DNA from: Lachnospiraceae bacterium
GTDB lineage: Bacteria > Bacillota > Clostridia > Lachnospirales > Lachnospiraceae
Direction: 5' to 3'
DNA length: 64,000 nucleotides
Assembly (NCBI GenBank): GCA_910574715.1
Contig: CAJTCH010000005.1
Coordinates: 62,001 to 126,000 of the forward strand
The notes below the pieces were generated by a model, which did not search any database, was not told the DNA's origin, and worked only from the letters and a program-made list of their open reading frames with translations. The translations under genes and the position numbers were made by a program. Below, piece after piece: positions 12,928-56,246 of the stretch (position 1 is its first letter; each line of letters starts with the position of its first letter).

Positions 12928-12999
12928 AAGGTACTGTGCATGCAGTGCCATTTTACAATATCGAGAATCATGCAAGTACACGCATACAATGAGGAAATT

Positions 13000-13478
13000 A
13001 TGTTGATCACGGGTGCAGAATTATTTGTGAAAGCTCTCAAAGCGGAGCAGATTGATACTCTGTTTGCTTATCCGGGCGGACAGGTGATCGACCTGTTTCA
13101 TGCCCTCTACGGTGAAAACGACATAGACGTTATTTTGCCGCGGCATGAACAGGGATTGATCCATGCTGCAGACGGATATGCACGCTCTATCTGGCAGTGA
13201 TCATAAAGAAAGCCTTTACGATTGCCTGGACAGGGAAACCAGGTGTTGCCGCGGTAGATCTGCCGAAAGATATTCAAAAAGAATACGGCAGTGATGAATA
13301 TCCAGTGCAAAGAAGCCCTTATTCCCCGGAAAAAATCATAAGGGAAATCTTTGATCTGATTCGCACATTTGGAAACGGCAAATACGAAGGAAAAGGTGAA
13401 GGAGTATCCTTGTTTTGGGATCGCTTCCAGAAAATGTGTGATATTCAGTTCAAATGTAACGCAATATTACGGATTTAA
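13000..13478 (+). pseudogene. ilvB: Acetolactate synthase large subunit relic
   Basis: The ATG at 13000 (GAGGAAATT before it) starts MLITGAELFVKALKAEQIDT, then FAYPGGQVIDLFHALY and LPRHEQGLIHAADGYARS, the ThDP-enzyme N-terminus with the catalytic-type Glu of RHEQ. The frame stops at 13200. From 13197 another frame gives IIKKAFTIAWTGKPGVAAVD and LPKDIQKEY, which in intact enzymes lies about 90 residues further on. The FAD-binding and C-terminal ThDP domains are missing. IlvB normally makes acetolactate for branched-chain amino acids; this copy cannot. Confidence 0.85.
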
Positions 13479-15965: not shown

Positions 15966-16424
15966 TTATCCAATAAATACCGTTTTCCCTTCAAATGCGA
16001 ATCCATACTGCCGGGTCCGTTCCTTTGGGGTTCCTTTTGCTTCCAGCGAAGCAGAATATTTCATGCGTTCAATCTGATCTAATGCTTCCTGTGCCGTATC
16101 TGCAAGCGAAGCTTCCTCGTCCGGGTCATGGACTTTAAATTCCAGAATAATAGCGCCGTCTGTGTCAGAAAGAGGCTCAAGAACCACATCATATCTTCCG
16201 AACCCGCTTTCACGGTTGGAAGTAATTGTGTACCGTTCAGCAAGATCTACCATCGGGCCAAGAACAAAACCATGATAAAATCTTTCGGGTTCTGCTGCTT
16301 CAGACGGATGCTTTCCGGTATCAAAGTGACTTAAGGTAGTGAGGGCAACCCGGTTCATATACAGATTCATCACCTTTTTATCATCTAATTCTTGTATCTT
16401 ATCATTCTCCAGGTATAAATTCAA
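15966..16424 (-). pseudogene. PD-(D/E)XK nuclease-domain protein, N-terminally truncated
   Basis: A 152-residue frame matching the C-terminal part of the AAA-ATPase-like/PD-(D/E)XK proteins common in gut anaerobes: FYHGFVLGPMVDLAERY, TSNRESGFGRYDVVLEPL (the D of the site) and AIILEFKVHDP (the ExK pair), ending YGFAFEGKTVFIG. Full proteins are, as I recall, over 500 residues with an ATPase domain in front; that part is absent here. Fragment, probably non-functional. Confidence 0.7.
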
Positions 16425-16519: not shown

Positions 16520-16598
16520 TTGACTTATAAATCTTACTGTTGTAATATTTTAGTGTGACAGATATATTTTTTGGATTTGAGTCTTACATGTGTAATAT
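16520..16598 (+). promoter_or_regulatory. Promoter with two BlaI-type operators
   Basis: TTGACT (16520-16525), 17-bp spacer and TAATAT (16543-16548) form a promoter toward the cluster at 16668-18580. Two dyads fit the BlaI/MecI consensus TTACa-NN-tGTAA: TTACTGTTGTAA at 16534-16545, overlapping the -10, and TTACATGTGTAA at 16584-16595, 50 bp downstream. The same dyad recurs at 20936-20947 by the blaI gene of this locus. Confidence 0.75.
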
Positions 16599-16667
16599 TA
16601 TAAAAAATAAGTTATAAACTATGAGAACATAATATGAACGAGTTTAAAAAGAGGGAAAGAAGGTCAT

Positions 16668-16882
16668 ATGAGAGAAAGATACAGCAAATTCCTTATCTTT
16701 ATATTATTGTTCTGCATTACGGGATGTATGCACATGAGATTGTGATCCGCCCTTTGGATAATGGAGGAGTGCAATATGTATCGAACCGGATTATACCGTC
16801 GGAAGACAATTATGAGGCAACTTAGCACAACCCCCGTTTGACAGAGGAATAGTGGGAAGAAATGTATGGGGTGACGGAATAG
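16668..16882 (+). pseudogene. Lipoprotein gene relic, first of three related genes
   Basis: An ATG at 16668 with ribosome site AAGAAGG encodes a signal peptide with lipobox (MRERYSKFLIFILLF then CITGC). That frame ends soon, but the overlapping frame carries HEIVIRPLDNGGVQYVSNRI, the C-terminal motif of the next gene (IVVVQPFEDGTFRYLSN), and then HNPRLTEE and WEEMYG interrupted by two stops. It appears to be a lipoprotein gene whose middle was lost. Its final TAG overlaps the GTG start of the next gene. Confidence 0.6.
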
Positions 16883-18171
16883 TGGAAAATGTAAAATGGA
16901 TGATAAAAAGGTGGGGAATTCTCTTTATAATGCTGCTGGCAGTCATAATAGCCAGCGCCATTATTTTAAAGCAGTCCAGGCAAAAAGAGACAGACGTTCT
17001 TATGGAAGACAGGGAGCATTCGATAGGGGCTTCAGTGAACAGTCATGAAGTAAAAAGTATAGAAGATGCAGCAGGGAAATCAGCAGATGATTATTCTCTT
17101 GATTCCTCAGATGTATTTCAAAAGTCAGAGAAATGCCTTATTACGGAAGATGAGAAAAGGCAGCTTCAGGAGCAGGTCTTAGCGGCGGCAGAGCAGGTGA
17201 AAGAAGTGTATAGAGATATAGAGGTTATAGGCAGTTCATCCTTTGCATCAAATATTGTAGATTTCACGGGCGAACAGTGTAAAGAGGTCGTAGCCCTCTT
17301 TGGACAGGCCGGATTTGTAAGCATTACTGAAGATTGTAATATGGTAAATCCAGAAAAGATTCAGAGTTTTTACTCGGACTATCTGGAGAAGCGTGACTCA
17401 ATGTTTACGATATATGAGGTTAACCCTGACGGCCTGATTGGCGCATTTACTTTCATATACCGGGACGATAAGCTTCAGACCTATTATGTGGGAATCGGCT
17501 GGCAGCAGGGCGGTACCCCCGAGATTAGGAGTACTTTGGTAAACAATATAGCAGAAATGAAACTAACTGAGAAAGGATATTTCATCTATTCATATGAGAT
17601 ACTGATTCCGCATTCAAGTCTGCGCCAGTACTGGCGGATCATGCCGATTTCAGATCAGTGCAGAGAACTGACAGAAAAATATATTTCCAGATTAAGCTAT
17701 GTAAACTACAATATGCTTGTGACAAACTGGGACAGCAGTAACGTAGGGGATATTCTGATGCCGTGTATGTTCGAAGATATCTACCGGATTTACACAGGAG
17801 AAATCCTGAAAGCAGAAAATCAGGTCATTCCCGCAGAGCTATATGAACAAATCATGACGACATATTTTCCGGTGTCAGTAGAAAAGGTAAGGGAATTATG
17901 CGGATATGATGAGGGCAGCGGCACGTATCCATATAAAATGATATACTCAAGGCCGTATCCTCCCTTTGGAGAGGTGGTCGATTATGCAGAGAACAACGAT
18001 GGAACGATTACGCTGTATATTGATGGAGTATGGCCAGACTATAATTCCGATTATGCATTTACAAATATAGTTGTTGTACAGCCATTTGAGGATGGAACTT
18101 TTAGATATCTGTCTAATGCCATAGAGAAAAGAGAATTGGAAATTCCCATAATAACTGGAACGGAAGGATGA
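16882..18171 (+). CDS. Membrane-anchored extracytoplasmic protein, unknown family
   Basis: A 429-residue protein from GTG 16882, coupled to the TAG of the preceding relic. One N-terminal membrane anchor (WGILFIMLLAVIIASAIIL) precedes a long outward-facing part. The C-terminal ~90 residues (GEVVDYAENNDGTITLYIDG, FEDGTFRYLSN) form a domain repeated in the neighbouring relics. I believe this matches a Lachnospiraceae DUF family (DUF6070 by memory, unverified). Two BlaI-type operators in the promoter and the adjacent blaI-blaR1 suggest beta-lactam or wall-stress control. Confidence 0.65.
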   Translation: MENVKWMIKRWGILFIMLLAVIIASAIILKQSRQKETDVLMEDREHSIGASVNSHEVKSIEDAAGKSADDYSLDSSDVFQKSEKCLITEDEKRQLQEQVLAAAEQVKEVYRDIEVIGSSSFASNIVDFTGEQCKEVVALFGQAGFVSITEDCNMVNPEKIQSFYSDYLEKRDSMFTIYEVNPDGLIGAFTFIYRDDKLQTYYVGIGWQQGGTPEIRSTLVNNIAEMKLTEKGYFIYSYEILIPHSSLRQYWRIMPISDQCRELTEKYISRLSYVNYNMLVTNWDSSNVGDILMPCMFEDIYRIYTGEILKAENQVIPAELYEQIMTTYFPVSVEKVRELCGYDEGSGTYPYKMIYSRPYPPFGEVVDYAENNDGTITLYIDGVWPDYNSDYAFTNIVVVQPFEDGTFRYLSNAIEKRELEIPIITGTEG

Positions 18172-18580
18172 AAATACTCTTTCTGAGGAGACAATTCTTG
18201 AGATGCAGGATAAACTTAAGGAAGCAGGGGGAGGTTTTCATCTGAAAATTATTTGGACGGAGCAGATATGGGAATATGCAGTGATTGATGAGGAGTCTGG
18301 AAACTATGCGTGGGAACGGCTGGGATGTTTAAATTATATTCCGAACTTTTTCGGAACTTCTGTGCCAGAGGTTACAGACATAAAGGAGAATGGGGACGGA
18401 ACGATTACATTGACTGTAGATGCTTTGTGTGACATGGTCATATGCAATGAAGCATTCATAACCCATGAACTTACTGTGCAGTTTGCAGAGGACGGGAGTT
18501 TTCAATATATAGGTAATTTAGTTCTGGATAATGGAATCCAGGAGATACCGAAGTATCAATACCGGGTGGGGATGAGGTGA
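18168..18580 (+). pseudogene. Third related gene, frameshifted C-terminal fragment
   Basis: ATG 18168 overlaps the previous TGA (ATGA coupling) but its frame closes within about 25 codons. An overlapping frame holds 125 residues from 18203 (MQDKLKEAGGGFHLKIIWTE) and ends with the same domain as the previous gene: VPEVTDIKENGDGTITLTVD and FAEDGSFQYIGN. The pair is best read as one gene reduced by deletion or frameshift. A terminator follows at 18601. Confidence 0.6.
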
Positions 18581-18600
18581 CAGATACAGTGAAAATTAAT

Positions 18601-18652
18601 AAAGACCGGATAACAGTGATAATAATGGTACTGTATCTCCGGTCTTTTTTAT
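18601..18652 (+). terminator. Terminator after the BlaI-controlled cluster
   Basis: AAAGACCGG (18601-18609) and CCGGTCTTT (18639-18647) pair perfectly and run into a T tract. It lies between the cluster and the convergent blaR1 gene. Confidence 0.85.
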
Positions 18653-18660
18653 TTCCATAT

Positions 18661-20526
18661 TTATTTCCATATATTCATATCTGATAAGACGGACATGGTT
18701 ATTTCAGCCGCATTCGCTCCGGAGGCATCAGCGCCGGCGCCGATATTGGCCGCAAAAAAGTATGTATTGCCGGCGGTTTCAACATATCCAACAAACCATC
18801 CGTTTACATTCGTATCATCGATGCTTCCTGTTCCGGTTTTCCCATAGATAGTTCCTGTTTCTGATAAGGAGAGACAGATGGAATCCTTTACTGCCTCGAC
18901 ATTTTCAGGTTGGAATCCGAAGGCGTTGTTATATAGTCTGACCAGTTGTTCTACCTGTTCTATGGGAGAAATCTTTAGGGAAGATTCCAACCAATAGAAA
19001 GGGAGACCGGCTTCTGTGTTTTCATTGCCATATCCGATTTTCTGAATGTAGTTCTTAATAGAAGCAGATCCAAGCTGTTTATCAATTCCCTGAAAATACC
19101 AGTTGACTGAAGAGCGCATGGCGGATGTCAGGGTCTGGTCAGCATTCCATTCCTTAAACGGATAGTTTTCCCCATCCCATTTCATTTTGGAATCTTCCGG
19201 TGTAATAATACCTTCTTCCAGTCCAAACAATGCGTCATACATTTTGTATGTGGAGTCAGGAGAGCGCCGTAAGGAGGCATGCTCTATATCGTAGATGCCC
19301 CATGCGTCCTGCTCAAGATTATACAAAACAAAACTTCCTTCATATTCTCCAAAATAAGACGAAAGATCCAGAGAAGTGACGTCCTTTGAAGAGGTTTTCC
19401 ATCGGTAGTGGCTATTGTCGGCCGCATATGTAGATAATATCGGCGCCAGGCTGATCAGAAGAACGGATGTCAGCAAAAAAGCAGCCATGCCTTTCAGCTT
19501 CTTCTTTAATGTTGGTGTTTCATAGGCGGCAATGCTCATGATGCGCCGTTTCATCTGTGTCATCGTTCCGCTGAGATTGACGGCAAAGGGGATGGAAGCA
19601 TGAGAGATCTTTTCGGCAAAACTGATCAATGTATTTCCATAATCTCCATAAGAATCCCCATCAAGCATGTTCAGTACGGAGGTGTCGCAGGCAACCTCCC
19701 TGTCGCATTGCATTTCTCTCAATGCAAGCCACACAACGGGATTGAACCAGTAAATAATTCTGGCAAGGACTATCAGATAATTAGCCAGTGCGTCTTTATG
19801 TCTGTAGTGCTGTAATTCATGCAGCAGCATATATCTTATCGGACGAAGCCCGCTTGTCTCAAGGCGGCACGGATTACAGGATGGCTTTTGGGTATTTTTA
19901 ATCTCCATTTCATTTTCATTATAATCTGAGATTAAATGAATCGGAAAATAGATGCAGGGCCTTAGAAGCCCTACGATCACGGGCGATTTCAAAAACGCGG
20001 TGCTGTATATGGGAATATTTTTTGTTATCTTCATCTCATGCAGGCATTCATGATACAGTCTGCGGATTTTGGGGTGTTGTAGAGGAAGCGCAGACTGTTT
20101 CAAGTTTTGTAACCGGAGGAAAGCCTTCGCCAGGAACACCACCATTACAAGGATGCCTGCAATCCAGATTCCCAGCAGTATGTTTCCGGTAATGGAAGAG
20201 GTACTGCTGCTTACAGAAAGAGTAAAATCATTCAGCCAGTCCATATTTCCGGTCGGATCGTCAGTCATTCGTTCTCTTGCTGCATTCCCTGTATATGACA
20301 CGGAGAAATTTTGAAAGAATGCAAGCGGGGAGAATATCTGAGAGAATCTGACTGGACGCAGCGGTATGAAAGGAACGGCCAGAAGTCCGAGCAGCAAAAA
20401 CCACAGATGATACTGCATCCGGCCGGACAGACTGTTTCGGAATAAATGCTTAACGGCCATAAGAAGCCCGATGATACCGCTGATGAACAGATTGCTTATA
20501 AGAAAATGTATGATAAAATCAGTCAT
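18661..20526 (-). CDS. blaR1: BlaR1-type sensor protease with penicillin-binding domain
   Basis: A 621-residue membrane sensor. The N-terminal half has several membrane helices and the M56 metalloprotease site HELQH at 236-240 with a downstream Glu/Asp-rich REMQCDREVACD. After a last membrane helix (about 345-367) the extracellular C-terminus is a class D-like penicillin-binding domain with S425-T-Y-K428 and KTGT 563-566. In known BlaR1/MecR1, beta-lactam acylation of the Ser triggers proteolysis that inactivates BlaI. Its start overlaps the blaI stop by 8 bases. No beta-lactamase gene is adjacent. Confidence 0.92.
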   Translation of the reverse strand: MTDFIIHFLISNLFISGIIGLLMAVKHLFRNSLSGRMQYHLWFLLLGLLAVPFIPLRPVRFSQIFSPLAFFQNFSVSYTGNAARERMTDDPTGNMDWLNDFTLSVSSSTSSITGNILLGIWIAGILVMVVFLAKAFLRLQNLKQSALPLQHPKIRRLYHECLHEMKITKNIPIYSTAFLKSPVIVGLLRPCIYFPIHLISDYNENEMEIKNTQKPSCNPCRLETSGLRPIRYMLLHELQHYRHKDALANYLIVLARIIYWFNPVVWLALREMQCDREVACDTSVLNMLDGDSYGDYGNTLISFAEKISHASIPFAVNLSGTMTQMKRRIMSIAAYETPTLKKKLKGMAAFLLTSVLLISLAPILSTYAADNSHYRWKTSSKDVTSLDLSSYFGEYEGSFVLYNLEQDAWGIYDIEHASLRRSPDSTYKMYDALFGLEEGIITPEDSKMKWDGENYPFKEWNADQTLTSAMRSSVNWYFQGIDKQLGSASIKNYIQKIGYGNENTEAGLPFYWLESSLKISPIEQVEQLVRLYNNAFGFQPENVEAVKDSICLSLSETGTIYGKTGTGSIDDTNVNGWFVGYVETAGNTYFFAANIGAGADASGANAAEITMSVLSDMNIWK

Positions 20527-20917
20527 GCAGTCTGCCTCCTTTACCGGGTTTTGTTGTGGAAAGAAGAGAGCGCAGGTGTTCGATCTCTGAATCAGACAGT
20601 CTGTCGTTTTCTATGTACTCAGAGAGCATGGCAGTGATATCTCCATCATAGAAACGTTTCAGGAAAGAACTGCTTTCCTGGCCAATATATTCCTTTTCCT
20701 TTACCAATGGGGTATAGACGAATACCCGGCTCTGCTTTTCATAGGCAAGAGCGCCTTTGGTTACAAGACGTTTGATCAGGGTCTGTATCGTCTTAGGACT
20801 CCAGGCGGTGGTTTTCAGTAATTTCTCAGTGATTTCGTTGGTATTGATGGGCGCGTATTTCCATACGACCTTCATTACTTCATATTCAGCTTCGGAAATC
20901 TGCGGCAGAGCGGCCAT
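20519..20917 (-). CDS. blaI: BlaI/MecI-family repressor
   Basis: A 132-residue winged-helix repressor: ISEAEYEVMKVVWKYAPINT, LLKTTAWSPKTIQTLIKRLV and KGALAYEKQSRVFVYTPLV are the HTH and wing, and the C-terminal helices form the dimer and cleavage region. It probably represses its own operon through the TTAC-N4-GTAA dyad at 20936-20947, and the gene cluster at 16668 through the two matching sites. Cotranscribed with blaR1. Confidence 0.93.
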   Translation of the reverse strand: MAALPQISEAEYEVMKVVWKYAPINTNEITEKLLKTTAWSPKTIQTLIKRLVTKGALAYEKQSRVFVYTPLVKEKEYIGQESSSFLKRFYDGDITAMLSEYIENDRLSDSEIEHLRSLLSTTKPGKGGRLHD

Positions 20918-20935
20918 AGTAAATCCCTCCTAATC

Positions 20936-20983
20936 TTACATGCGTAATAAAGATATTATATAGGGTGTACGGAGGATTGTCAA
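20936..20983 (-). promoter_or_regulatory. blaI promoter and BlaI operator
   Basis: A near-ideal minus-strand promoter: TTGACA (20978-20983), 17-bp spacer, TATAAT (20955-20960). The dyad TTAC-ATGC-GTAA at 20936-20947 lies just after the -10, where a bound repressor blocks initiation. It is the same dyad type as at 16534 and 16584. Confidence 0.85.
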
Positions 20984-21108
20984 TTATAGATGAATATAGA
21001 TGCTTAGGTTTCTTTTTCGTTGCCAGGGAAGGTAATTAACGATATAATAAGGATAAGATATCTTACCTTTTTTCAATCAGGGAAGCAGCGATTGGGAAGA
21101 ATTACCCT

Positions 21109-21302
21109 ATGGATGTGAAGGTAGAAGCTTTACCATCGGAGGGGTATTTGACCGAAGGACAGGAAGTGAATTATAATTCTGAGAATATCATTCTGGAGGA
21201 ATTTACAAAGGAACGCATTGTTGAAAAGAGATTATGCAGGAGTTCGGCCTGGATGATGCGGATATTTTGAAAAGGCTGCAGGAGGTGCAGTCTATGACGT
21301 AG
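21109..21302 (+). pseudogene. Unrecognised gene fragment with frameshift
   Basis: In the 500-base gap between blaI and the VOC gene, a frame from ATG 21109 reads MDVKVEALPSEGYLTEGQEV and NSENIILEEFTKERIVEK; one base out of frame it continues EIMQEFGLDDADILKRLQEV, ending at TAG 21300-21302. The coding-like composition across the shift indicates a broken gene. I do not recognise the family. The rest of the gap holds nothing clear. Confidence 0.4.
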
Positions 21303-41625: not shown

Positions 41626-41991
41626 TCAGGAATGTTCCCTGTGCGAATCGATCATCGCCTTAATCTCCTTCGCCTCTCTCTCCGAAATCTTCCGGTTCCC
41701 CAAAAAAGCTGCCACAAACTTCGGGAGGGATCCCTCAAATGTCCTATTCATAAAGTAATCGGTTTCCGCCGCCTGGCATTCCTCTTTCAGAACCAGCGCC
41801 GTCACAAGAGCCGTATCATTCCTTAAGAACCCCCTCTTTTCCAGCTTCTTAATCACCGTATACGTTGTAGATTTCTTCCATCCCAGCTGTTCTTGGGCGA
41901 CCCTTACCAAATCGCCGCTGCGCACAGGGGATAATTCCCATACAAGACACATAAAGCGATATTCACTGTCACATAATCTTAAGTCTTCCAT
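41626..41991 (-). CDS. BlaI/MecI-family repressor (second copy)
   Basis: A 121-residue winged-helix repressor: CDSEYRFMCLVWELSPVRSG, LGWKKSTTYTVIKKLEKRGF and a C-terminal dimer region (FEGSLPKFVAAFLG, ISEREAKEIKAMID). The partner M56 sensor gene downstream is broken, so the repressor may now act without its inactivator. A perfect 23-bp inverted repeat covers its promoter. Confidence 0.9.
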   Translation of the reverse strand: MEDLRLCDSEYRFMCLVWELSPVRSGDLVRVAQEQLGWKKSTTYTVIKKLEKRGFLRNDTALVTALVLKEECQAAETDYFMNRTFEGSLPKFVAAFLGNRKISEREAKEIKAMIDSHREHS

Positions 41992-42023
41992 ATCTCATCT
42001 CTCCCTACTTAATTCTCATATAT

Positions 42024-42085
42024 CAAATCAGGTCTACTAATATAGATCACATAATTAGTCTATATTAGTAGACCTGATTTGTCAA
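42024..42085 (-). promoter_or_regulatory. Promoter with perfect 23-bp inverted-repeat operator
   Basis: Arms at 42024-42046 and 42059-42081 are exact complements (each contains GGTCTACTAATATAGA or its complement) around a 12-base centre. On the minus strand TTGACA (42080-42085), 17-bp spacer and TAGACT (42057-42062) form the promoter, so the right arm fills the spacer. It is the likely operator of the second BlaI protein and differs from the TTAC-N4-GTAA sites. Confidence 0.85.
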
Positions 42086-42099
42086 GTTATTTTCTTTTA

Positions 42100-42390
42100 A
42101 CAGAATTTTTGTCGCTGAATCATGGCTGATACTTCCGCTTCCGGTTAGAATCTTTCTGCTGCCCGAAGTCAAAATCGTAGCATTGATTTCAGCTAAATCG
42201 AAATAACCAGAAACAAGATTATTGAGTATCTTCAACTCATCTTCTTTCAGAGAATTCCCCTTTCATAAATCACTTCTGCAGAGAATTGCCCCAGATACGG
42301 AACTGGGTACCACGGATTGATTTGACACAGTAGCCTACTGAAATAATGACATCCAGATTCTGCAGCCACCATGTTCTGAACATGATATTA
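42100..42390 (-). pseudogene. RhuM-family (virulence RhuM-like) gene relic
   Basis: On the minus strand the sequence reads WWLQNLDVIISVGYCVKSIR followed by GTQFRIWGNSLQ and a stop, the conserved start of the RhuM core (LDxIISVGYRVxSxRGTQFRIWA). Further on, in another frame, ILNNLVSGYFDLAEINA and SGSISHDSATKIL match the kind of C-terminus seen in that family. Stops and frame changes show it is dead. The remaining 42391-42569 carries only the leader of the sigma gene. Confidence 0.6.
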
Positions 42391-49932: not shown

Positions 49933-50802
49933 ATGTGGATCTATCTGACCGGAAACGACGGACTTGCCCCGATCATTCTGTATGAATACCAGCCGGGGAG
50001 GCAGGGTGAATACGCAAAGAACTTCCTGGAAGGCTTCAGCGGACTGCTGGAATGCGACGGTTATACGGGATACAATCGTGTGGAAAATGTAATCCTGGTA
50101 TGCTGCCTGGCACACTGCCGGAGATACTTCTTTGAAGCAATCCCTGCCAACCGCCGCCGAAGAATAAAACTGCTGGATATCAACTCACCGGAGGAGATTC
50201 CCGCAGAAACAGCCGATCCCCAAAAGGCAAAGAAACAGCAGCAGCCTTCCGCAGAGATCGGGCTTTGCTACTGCAACCAGCTTTTCCGCATAGAACGGAC
50301 CCTGAAAGACATGGATGCACAAGATCGGAAAGCCAGACGTCTTAAGCTGGAAGTTCCTGTCTGGGATGATTTCTGGGACTGGCTCGGAACATTAAAGCCG
50401 CTTGGTGGGAGCAAGCTTGAGAAAGCAATAAATTATGCGAAGAACCACCAGGAACTGCTCGGGAACTATCTGTTAGACGGGAGATGTGAGATTTCGAACA
50501 ACCGTGCGGAGCGTCGTGCGAAATCTTATGGAACCGGAAGAAAGAATTTCCTGTTCCATAACAGTGTAAACGGCGCAAGATCAAGCGCCATCATATACAG
50601 CCTTGTAGAAACAGCGAAGGCAAACCACCTGAACGTATTTCAATACCTCTATACATTATTGCTATATATGCCGGACTACAAAAATAAGCCCGCAGGAGTG
50701 GAAGCAATGATGCCATGGAGCGAATTCATAAAGGAGCGCTGTTCGGGGGTAATGAATACAGAAACCGAGACGCCTGAAAATCGGGGACAGATACCAGTCT
50801 GA
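49933..50802 (+). pseudogene. tnpC: IS66 transposase TnpC, C-terminal part (interrupted)
   Basis: The remaining 289 residues of the transposase: MWIYLTGNDGLAPIILYEYQ, then the second catalytic Asp in LLECDGYTGYNRV, CLAHCRRYF, and the Glu in GRCEISNNRAERRAK followed by SYGTGRKNFLFH, the IS66 signature. It can be opened from its own ATG but lacks the DNA-binding half, so it is not a functional transposase unless the RIT element excises. Confidence 0.93.
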
Positions 50803-55091: not shown

Positions 55092-56246
55092 CTAATGTGT
55101 TACAGGTAAAGAAATACGAAAAGTTGTTGATTCGTTTTCACTTTCGGCAGTAATTTTACCTCCATGCAATGTTATGATTTCTTTTGCAATCGCAAGTCCC
55201 AATCCTGCACCTCCCGTATTCGTCGAACGTGCTTCATCCATACGGAAAAACTTCTCAAAAATATAATTTAGCTTTCCTGCAGGAATTGTCTTTCCTTTAT
55301 TGCAAAAATAAATCCAAACATCCGTAGCTGTGCTTTCAGCCCATATTTTTATTATAGTATCTGGGTAGCTGTATGCAATTGCATTTTTTAAAATATTATT
55401 GAAAACTCTGGCTAATTTTATAGAATCCCCATAAACCGTTATATCTTCATCTACACATACCTCTGTTTGATTACCATGGGCATTTAACAGCGGATAAAAT
55501 TCATCTGTCATTTGTATCAACATATGACAGAGGTTTATAGATTCTTTTTCCAAATCAATTTGTTGCAGATTATATCGTGTTATATCAAAAAATTCGTTGA
55601 TAAGTTTTTCTAAACGAAGAGCTTTGCTTAATGCAATATTTACATACTTCGTTTTTTGTTCTATCGGCATATCCTGTGCTTCATCTAATAATGCTAAATA
55701 TCCAATGACAGAGGTAAGCGGTGTCTTTAAATCATGTGCAAGATAAGCAATCAAATCATTTTTTCTGCTTGCTTCTTCCTTTAACATTTGTTCATGCCGC
55801 TGCATCGCCTGTTTTATATCGGACATCTGGGCTGAAATTTCGGCATACTCTTTAGGGAAAATTTCTATATTCCCTCTTTCCTCAATCATAAAATCATGGA
55901 GCATCGCCGAAGTCGCAGTAATGGATTTTCTCACTTTTTCCTTTGCATATAAATTTGCAGTTACAAAAGTAACCACAATGCTGATAAGTACGATTAAAAT
56001 CAAAACTGTCAAAATAAATACTTTTAGCTCTGACCATAAAGGCTCTGTAACAAGAATATTCTTTTTAACATCAGCAGAATACACTTCATGCGTGTTCATA
56101 TATTTAGATGTAAACCAGTCTACAAAAAAACCATTCCAGACATTATCCACCAGATAATACAATCCAAAGCAAACAACGATGCCGAAGATACAAGTGCCAA
56201 TTAGTGTAGTTGCCTTTGAAATCTTAATTTTCAATTTTGTATCCAC
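55092..56246 (-). CDS. vanS: Vancomycin-responsive sensor kinase VanS (vanG type)
   Basis: A 384-residue kinase from GTG 56246, overlapping vanR by 23 bases. Two membrane segments (about 15-37 and 74-100) flank a short outer loop, a HAMP region follows, then H-box AYLAHDLKTPLTSVIGYLAL, N-box NNILKNAIAYS and G2 box GGAGLGLAIAKEI. The G1 box reads FCNKGKTIPAG, a known variant in VanS rather than DxGxG. It phosphorylates VanR in the presence of glycopeptide. Confidence 0.93.
   Translation of the reverse strand: MDTKLKIKISKATTLIGTCIFGIVVCFGLYYLVDNVWNGFFVDWFTSKYMNTHEVYSADVKKNILVTEPLWSELKVFILTVLILIVLISIVVTFVTANLYAKEKVRKSITATSAMLHDFMIEERGNIEIFPKEYAEISAQMSDIKQAMQRHEQMLKEEASRKNDLIAYLAHDLKTPLTSVIGYLALLDEAQDMPIEQKTKYVNIALSKALRLEKLINEFFDITRYNLQQIDLEKESINLCHMLIQMTDEFYPLLNAHGNQTEVCVDEDITVYGDSIKLARVFNNILKNAIAYSYPDTIIKIWAESTATDVWIYFCNKGKTIPAGKLNYIFEKFFRMDEARSTNTGGAGLGLAIAKEIITLHGGKITAESENESTTFRISLPVTH

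Follow-up and report, generated by a model that had tools for sequence, protein, structure and literature searches.

Which genes does a BlaI/BlaR1 pair govern when no beta-lactamase lies in the position of its target? The question is raised by a 64,000-nucleotide stretch of a Lachnospiraceae genome (assembly GCA_910574715.1, contig CAJTCH010000005.1, positions 62,001 to 126,000; hereafter the window), in which the repressor gene blaI and the sensor gene blaR1 lie beside genes that the original prediction described as an unknown membrane-anchored family standing in for a beta-lactamase. This family is Pfam PF19546 (DUF6070), a family not characterised before, and no paper naming it was found in the literature searched. 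Judging from sequence and comparative analysis, the window probably carries an envelope operon controlled by BlaI and BlaR1, in which DUF6070 proteins would be inducible by beta-lactams and may serve as partners (a, b and c) of a penicillin-binding protein (PBP) made in trans. The best explanation is a mec-like, beta-lactam-induced regulon whose effectors would be a PBP5/PBP2a-like PBP and the DUF6070 a-b-c proteins, the window holding a reduced copy. The predicted control is of the known bla/mec kind, and the effector family and operon type are new. Gut Lachnospiraceae face beta-lactam therapy, and their blaI/blaR1 genes may be mistaken for beta-lactamase control. A safety study of Blautia producta lists blaI/blaR1 without ampicillin resistance and offers no more than speculation on the explanation (PMC8146736).

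The identity and placement of blaI and blaR1 given by the original prediction were upheld by the family models (Table 1). The blaI product is matched by PF03965 over the whole protein, which places it in the BlaI/MecI repressor family. Comparison with the PDB gave the penicillinase repressor 1p6r and MecI (1sd6 and 1okr) as matches, and the window protein has in common with 1p6r the segment WSPKTIQT, which we take to be the recognition helix. BlaR1, which exceeds the NF000326 cut-off, was aligned to the solved BlaR1 8exp and keeps HELQH (the M56 HEXXH motif), STYK, YGN and KTG (including the SxxK/KTG motifs of the sensor domain). The two genes are convergent with the adjoining DUF6070 genes. 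Three dyads of the form TTAC-N4-GTAA had been predicted, and all were located: two lie in or next to the operon promoter, 50 bp apart, and the third directly follows the blaI promoter, so that the order on the minus strand is promoter, dyad 3, the ribosome-binding site AGGAGGG and blaI. That each dyad is followed by TA is true of all three on the plus strand; in the direction of blaI, dyad 3 is followed by GA. The window contains four TTAC-N4-GTAA sites against 0.73 expected, a number reached in 0 of 100 shuffles, and the fourth site (55961) falls within a called open reading frame (ORF; 55092-56246, minus strand).

Table 1 Features of the operon region in the window, and OmpR/PhoB-like genes in related loci (locus name before the positions)
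Feature	Position	Strand	Basis or description
Operon promoter TTGACT-N17-TAATAT, upstream of the DUF6070 genes	16520..16548	+	Sequence; geometry kept in relatives
Dyad 1, BlaI-type TTAC-N4-GTAA, between -35 and -10, overlapping -10	16534..16545	+	Motif scan
Dyad 2, BlaI-type, TACA-N2-TGTA core, 50 bp downstream of dyad 1	16584..16595	+	Motif scan
DUF6070a remnant	16634..16879	+	C-terminal piece ~16724-16879 with two in-frame stops; lipobox-like piece ~16692-16727 in another frame
DUF6070b, intact, 439 amino acids (aa), with a single hydrophobic segment at the N terminus and an extracytoplasmic domain	16852..18171	+	PF19546, 225.3 bits (cut-off 27)
DUF6070c remnant, C-terminal ~109 residues (~18251-18577)	18203..18580	+	PF19546, 128.9 bits (cut-off 27)
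blaR1, M56 metalloprotease and penicillin-binding sensor domain, 621 aa	18661..20526	-	NF000326, 663.7 bits (cut-off 400)
blaI repressor, 132 aa	20519..20917	-	PF03965 (Penicillinase_R), 116.1 bits (Pfam cut-off 22.6)
Dyad 3, BlaI-type, downstream of the blaI -10 box and ahead of the ribosome-binding site	20936..20947	-	Motif scan
blaI promoter TTGACA-N17-TATAAT	20955..20983	-	Sequence
OmpR/PhoB-like gene	L020 16329-16745
OmpR/PhoB-like gene	L068 16243-16659
OmpR/PhoB-like gene	L122 12661-13083
OmpR/PhoB-like gene	L166 2907-3356
OmpR/PhoB-like gene	L177 3253-3675
OmpR/PhoB-like gene	L025 17350-18054

Proteins of the same BlaI and BlaR1 families operate in the blaP/blaZ-blaI-blaR1 divergon of Bacillus licheniformis and Staphylococcus aureus, in which the operators OP1-OP3 are assigned to individual genes. 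Like the divergon with its OP1-OP3 (PMC3305447), the window has three dyads: a pair precedes the effector and the third lies at blaI. It differs in that the effector position, held in the divergon by the regulated beta-lactamase, is taken by DUF6070 (joined by a PBP in some relatives), and in that the operons are convergent, not divergent. Beta-lactamase2 (PF13354) had four weak matches of 24-28 bits (cut-off 22) in the genome, three of them partial, this being the one class searched genome-wide.

Conservation of the dyads before orthologous clusters, on which the original prediction had staked itself, was found for clusters with linked bla genes. Two collections were used: set 1, 58 loci taken from DUF6070 matches among 299 genomes sampled from the window's family, and set 2, 73 loci collected from genome contigs by similarity to the window gene. 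Near-identical loci occur in both (e.g. L020/L163 and L029/L172), and the sets are therefore not independent. Genes and operon starts were called with a simple custom ORF caller, and promoter stretches comprised 460 bp for DUF6070/PBP operons and 360 bp for blaI. DUF6070 operons starting less than 150 bp from a contig end (five bla-linked and two others in set 1; two and three in set 2) and blaI genes less than 100 bp from an end were left out. Densities count the strict TTAC-N4-GTAA, and counts per operon also take nTACA-N2-TGTAn. Of the strict dyads, 80 of 110 (set 1) and 85 of 119 (set 2) fell within the promoter stretches, corresponding to 2.47 vs 0.036 per kb elsewhere and 1.95 vs 0.029 per kb, an enrichment of about 70-fold. 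The 81 stretches of set 1 held 85 dyads, overlapping stretches being counted twice, against a mean of 0.6 and a maximum of 5 in 200 first-order Markov resamplings. At least one dyad was present at 20/21 (set 1) and 29/35 (set 2) bla-linked DUF6070 operons, and blaI genes carried a dyad in 22/23 and 25/27 loci; for DUF6070 operons to which no bla gene is linked the figures were 10/30 and 15/39. Of 136 operon dyads, 66 are preceded by a TTGACA-like box (at most one mismatch) at a distance of exactly 14 nt and 6 at a distance of 13 nt, a count that covers all sets, includes the second dyads of pairs (mostly without their own -35 box) and omits sites too close to a contig end. The promoter signature of the regulon reads TTGACt-N8-TTAC-N4-GTAATATT and, if the proposed regulon is real, could be used to find its remaining members.

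Co-occurrence of DUF6070 with blaR1 in related genomes, a check proposed at the outset, was likewise found. DUF6070 was present in 54 of the 299 genomes, BlaR1 over its cut-off in 50 and both in 37 (odds ratio 39, Fisher p 2.5e-23); the draw takes about one genome per genus, and these statistics ignore kinship above the genus. BlaR1 or BlaI of the window type occurred in 26 of the 58 set-1 loci, and a further locus, L170, had weaker relatives only. Across 45 genomes, a dyad preceded DUF6070 in 25/29 with BlaR1 over the cut-off vs 5/16 without (p 5e-4; L137, L156 and L157 yielded no operon record), and two of those five (G164 and G001) have a sub-cut-off BlaR1 fragment beside DUF6070. DUF6070 had no match in 14 control genomes, and in a draw of 391 genomes from across the class it matched in the window's own genome only. 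Fifteen other family members in that draw were also negative, so it bears weakly on rarity, and it suggests that DUF6070 is rare outside the window's family. Spread by plasmids is not supported, as a tblastn search of PLSDB found no DUF6070, yet the record of locus L015 (287 kb) is titled a plasmid of Sporofaciens musculi.

In many relatives the full set consists of three DUF6070 genes in the fixed order a-b-c. All the domains from the first, second and third positions of three-member arrays (21 of each) formed three separate main clades in a tree, and the window DUF6070b grouped among the second-position domains; the tree took 91 of the 153 collected domains, chosen by hand, and the program flagged a risk that long branches group together. 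The genes are often fused, some genomes having a+b or a+b+c as a single open frame of ~750-1280 aa. By a simple rule, a lipobox was found in 70 of 108 proteins classed a/c and a membrane segment in 29 of 39 classed b, the classing being a rough one by profile score alone. The three related lipoprotein or membrane-anchored genes originally described for the window do share this family, but one intact gene, DUF6070b, and two fragments are present. In the a remnant, the ORF 16634-16825 covers the last ~52 residues of an a-type protein; the C-terminal piece is 71% identical to the a-type protein of L017 and reaches 33.9 bits with PF19546 (cut-off 27), and the lipobox-like piece of 12 residues is a weak match (E 0.29). 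Comparison of the window b gene with the copy on contig C29 of the same genome gave a nonsynonymous divergence (dN) of ~0.21 and a synonymous divergence (dS) of ~1.7, the latter saturated, so that the estimate is rough and long-term; these values point to past purifying selection on the window b gene.

A second candidate effector became apparent in the relatives. A class B PBP of about 705 aa lies with DUF6070 in 21 of the 58 set-1 loci (two as contig-edge fragments) and in 8 of the 73 set-2 loci (L018, L020, L022, L031, L048, L068, L084 and, as a fragment, L019). Thus the claim of an effector instead of a beta-lactamase stands as to the absence of a beta-lactamase from the effector position and fails as to a plain replacement. 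Such a PBP is near 13/21 (set 1) and 6/35 (set 2) bla-linked DUF6070 operons. Usually the dyad pair comes first, then the PBP and directly after it the DUF6070 genes, and past these lies blaR1-blaI in convergent orientation. Two loci depart from this: in L134 DUF6070 precedes the PBP, and in L141 blaI is divergent from the PBP. The three PBPs tested (L089, L031 and L134) have the domains MecA_N, PBP_dimer and Transpeptidase, and that of L031 scored 449.9 bits with MECA_PBP2A, below the cut-off of 750. Since some relatives have a PBP of the MecA_N type beside DUF6070, the system resembles mec, and DUF6070 looks like an effector added to it.

The genome of the window has a single MecA_N match, a PBP on contig C26. 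Its nearest PDB entries are PBP3 (7bn9), PBP5 and PBP2a, so that the low-affinity PBP5/PBP4(5) of enterococci and PBP3 are its nearest structural relatives. With 562.6 bits on the PBP4_5_Efaec model (cut-off 700) and 399.4 bits on MECA_PBP2A (cut-off 750), it is at most like PBP4(5) and PBP2a. Its promoter is composed of TTGACA, the dyad CTACAGGTGTAA and TAAGAT, and another TTAC-N4-GTAA lies ~140 bp upstream. A search of 20 DUF6070 genomes found such a PBP in 10, in 11 copies, and a dyad lay near the start of about 8 of the 11, an approximate figure, as sites were judged by position in loci whose orientation did not follow that of the PBP; the site of L184 is 236 bp upstream. One of the dyad-bearing copies, L181, is DUF6070-linked, being the PBP of L140. 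G262, a genome of the same genus, has the PBP and BlaR1 in convergent arrangement and carries DUF6070, preceded by a separate dyad, at another place on that contig. The likeness to mecA-mecR1-mecI consists in predicted control by the same families over a class B PBP with MecA_N, both in some relatives and, judging by the box, in the window's genome; the differences are the low score on the PBP2a model, the added DUF6070 and the unlinked position of the PBP in this genome. The enterococcal PBPs are not known to be under BlaI control.

Further dyads mark other DUF6070 regions of the genome: on C29 at 39875, before one array, and at 50669, between two genes of another, and on C17 at 49317. The C29 region (L009) contains BlaR1, no BlaI was found nearby, and the a gene and blaR1 are each spread over two frames; its b domain is nearly identical (tree branch 0.003) to that of L015. 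The BlaI family is matched four times in the genome, at 116 bits by the window copy and at 84, 71 and 26 bits elsewhere, and window BlaI, with the highest score, is therefore the likeliest repressor of the dyad sites of the window, C29, C17 and C26.

By analogy with the bla and mec mechanism, BlaI dimers on the dyads would hold the DUF6070 and blaI-blaR1 units off. A beta-lactam would acylate the sensor domain of BlaR1 and BlaI would be inactivated, upon which DUF6070 would be made, and the MecA_N-type PBP on the other contig would be made in trans. Less certain is the role of the three DUF6070 proteins, which may be extracytoplasmic, membrane-anchored partners of the PBP that sustain peptidoglycan synthesis under beta-lactam stress. 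Having lost a and c, the window copy would supply the b subunit at best. A still more specific idea, which we put forward tentatively and hold at somewhat less than an even chance, is that a-b-c form with the MecA_N-type PBP a new beta-lactam-inducible extracytoplasmic complex, seen in this analysis almost exclusively in the window's family, and that some of these regulons include a divergent orphan winged-helix regulator. If the proposal is true, the effectors of this regulon (PBP and DUF6070) can be named, a Pfam family of unknown function gains a testable role, and gut commensals would rely, for a mec-like tolerance of beta-lactams, on dedicated accessory proteins that are not known in staphylococci. 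DUF6070 proteins may then be an overlooked part of the beta-lactam response.

Several results weigh against this proposal. Ten of the 20 DUF6070 genomes had no such PBP at E 1e-60 (four of these are less than 90% complete), and 65 of the 73 set-2 loci have none in the collected stretch. The DUF6070 and MecA_N profiles fail to match, and the partnership is read from gene order and shared boxes only. No dyad was found in 20/30 (set 1) and 24/39 (set 2) DUF6070 operons lacking a linked bla gene, so the family is not solely a BlaI target; for unlinked operons, dyad presence did not differ significantly with BlaR1 in the genome (7/15 vs 3/15, p 0.25). Nor are dyads over-abundant in the window's own genome, where 116 strand-wise matches compare with 270 for the reversed-pattern control, and genome-wide enrichment of the motif was rejected. 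The window operon is itself eroding, with b the one intact gene, and the near relative L072, whose blaI is identical at 398 of 399 nt, keeps blaR1-blaI beside a c-gene fragment only.

The first part of these results would fit control of DUF6070 by BlaI with proteins that act alone, for example as an envelope shield or wall-damage sensor, and without the MecA_N-type PBP. The many bla-linked operons with no PBP nearby, the PBP-negative genomes and the DUF6070 genes that have neither bla nor dyad all favour it. Where the PBP is present, however, it usually stands directly before DUF6070 in one promoter unit (reversed in L134), unlinked PBPs carry the same box in this genome and in most other copies examined, and four of the ten negatives are the incomplete assemblies noted above; we regard solitary action as a real though rather doubtful alternative. 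It is somewhat less likely that the window locus is a decaying relic, whose blaI-blaR1 still regulate the C26 PBP or the other DUF6070 clusters while the local DUF6070 no longer matters. Two of its three DUF6070 genes are remnants, fragments resembling acetolactate synthase and nuclease genes by eye lie near the operon, and in the collected stretch of L072 no b-type gene adjoins blaR1. Against this, DUF6070b is intact and its rough dN and dS values are those given above, and the promoter, both dyads, the ribosome-binding site and the blaR1 motifs are all intact. That the dyads before DUF6070 arose by chance or serve another regulator, with incidental bla neighbours, is very improbable: the motif is short and not enriched genome-wide, but its promoter enrichment, fixed geometry and recurrence at nearly all blaI genes speak against it.

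The gene fragments around the operon suggest a region shaped by insertion and decay. Pieces resembling by eye a gene of L009, which we take to be acetolactate synthase, flank the operon together with others (12940-13478, 21036-21300 and 15966-16424). A nearby piece matches by eye a gene intact in L072 (5944-6987), presumably a nuclease, and a PD-(D/E)XK ORF (Pfam) is among the fragments. In L009 itself, genes resembling ilvB/ilvN by eye lie between the DUF6070 array and blaR1. Elsewhere, eight closely related loci (L062, L065, L066, L069, L070, L071, L073 and L076) have DUF6070 after TetR-/HAD-like genes, as judged by eye; no bla genes were found in this group, and its DUF6070 gene has no dyad.

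Structure prediction gave confident models for DUF6070b. The AlphaFold2 (AF2) model of residues 75-439 had a predicted local distance difference test score (pLDDT) of 91.5, and the N-terminal half alone 90.3; neither model had a confident match in the PDB, and a profile search found no solved structure homologous to DUF6070 by sequence (best E 0.67). Weak PDB matches hinted at an NTF2/cystatin-like fold for the C-terminal half and a sugar-phosphatase relation of the N-terminal half, and neither was adopted as an assignment. Homology of DUF6070 to the MecA_N domain of the PBP was rejected (profile comparison probability 0.3%).

A beta-lactamase of Clostridioides difficile is under BlaRI control (a literature search for it gave no such paper among the matches listed). 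No report of a BlaI/BlaR1/PBP regulon of the present kind in Lachnospiraceae, clostridial or gut bacteria was among the best 10-20 matches listed. The BlaI_0696 and BlaI_1845 regulons of Clostridium thermocellum are likewise small, with hypothetical-protein targets and paired sites, and are an earlier case of BlaI with targets whose function is unknown; their motif GTCTAT/GACTAT differs from that of the window, and DUF6070 is not named in the part of the paper available (PMC8457756). A second BlaI-family gene lies in the window at 41626-41991 on the minus strand (region 41626-42200). Upstream of it, a large inverted repeat around GTCTACTAATATAGA, seen by eye, is unlike TTAC-N4-GTAA and recalls the C. 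thermocellum motif (PMC8457756).

An OmpR/PhoB-like DNA-binding gene is divergent from blaI in 7 of the 18 loci looked at (Table 1), the seventh being L163, a near copy of L020. All four proteins tested contain Trans_reg_C, and the ~140-aa ones among them show no receiver domain. Dyads additional to that of blaI are present as a pair in L025, L122, L166 and L177 and singly in L020 and L068. This gene is possibly a second-tier regulator of the DUF6070 regulon.

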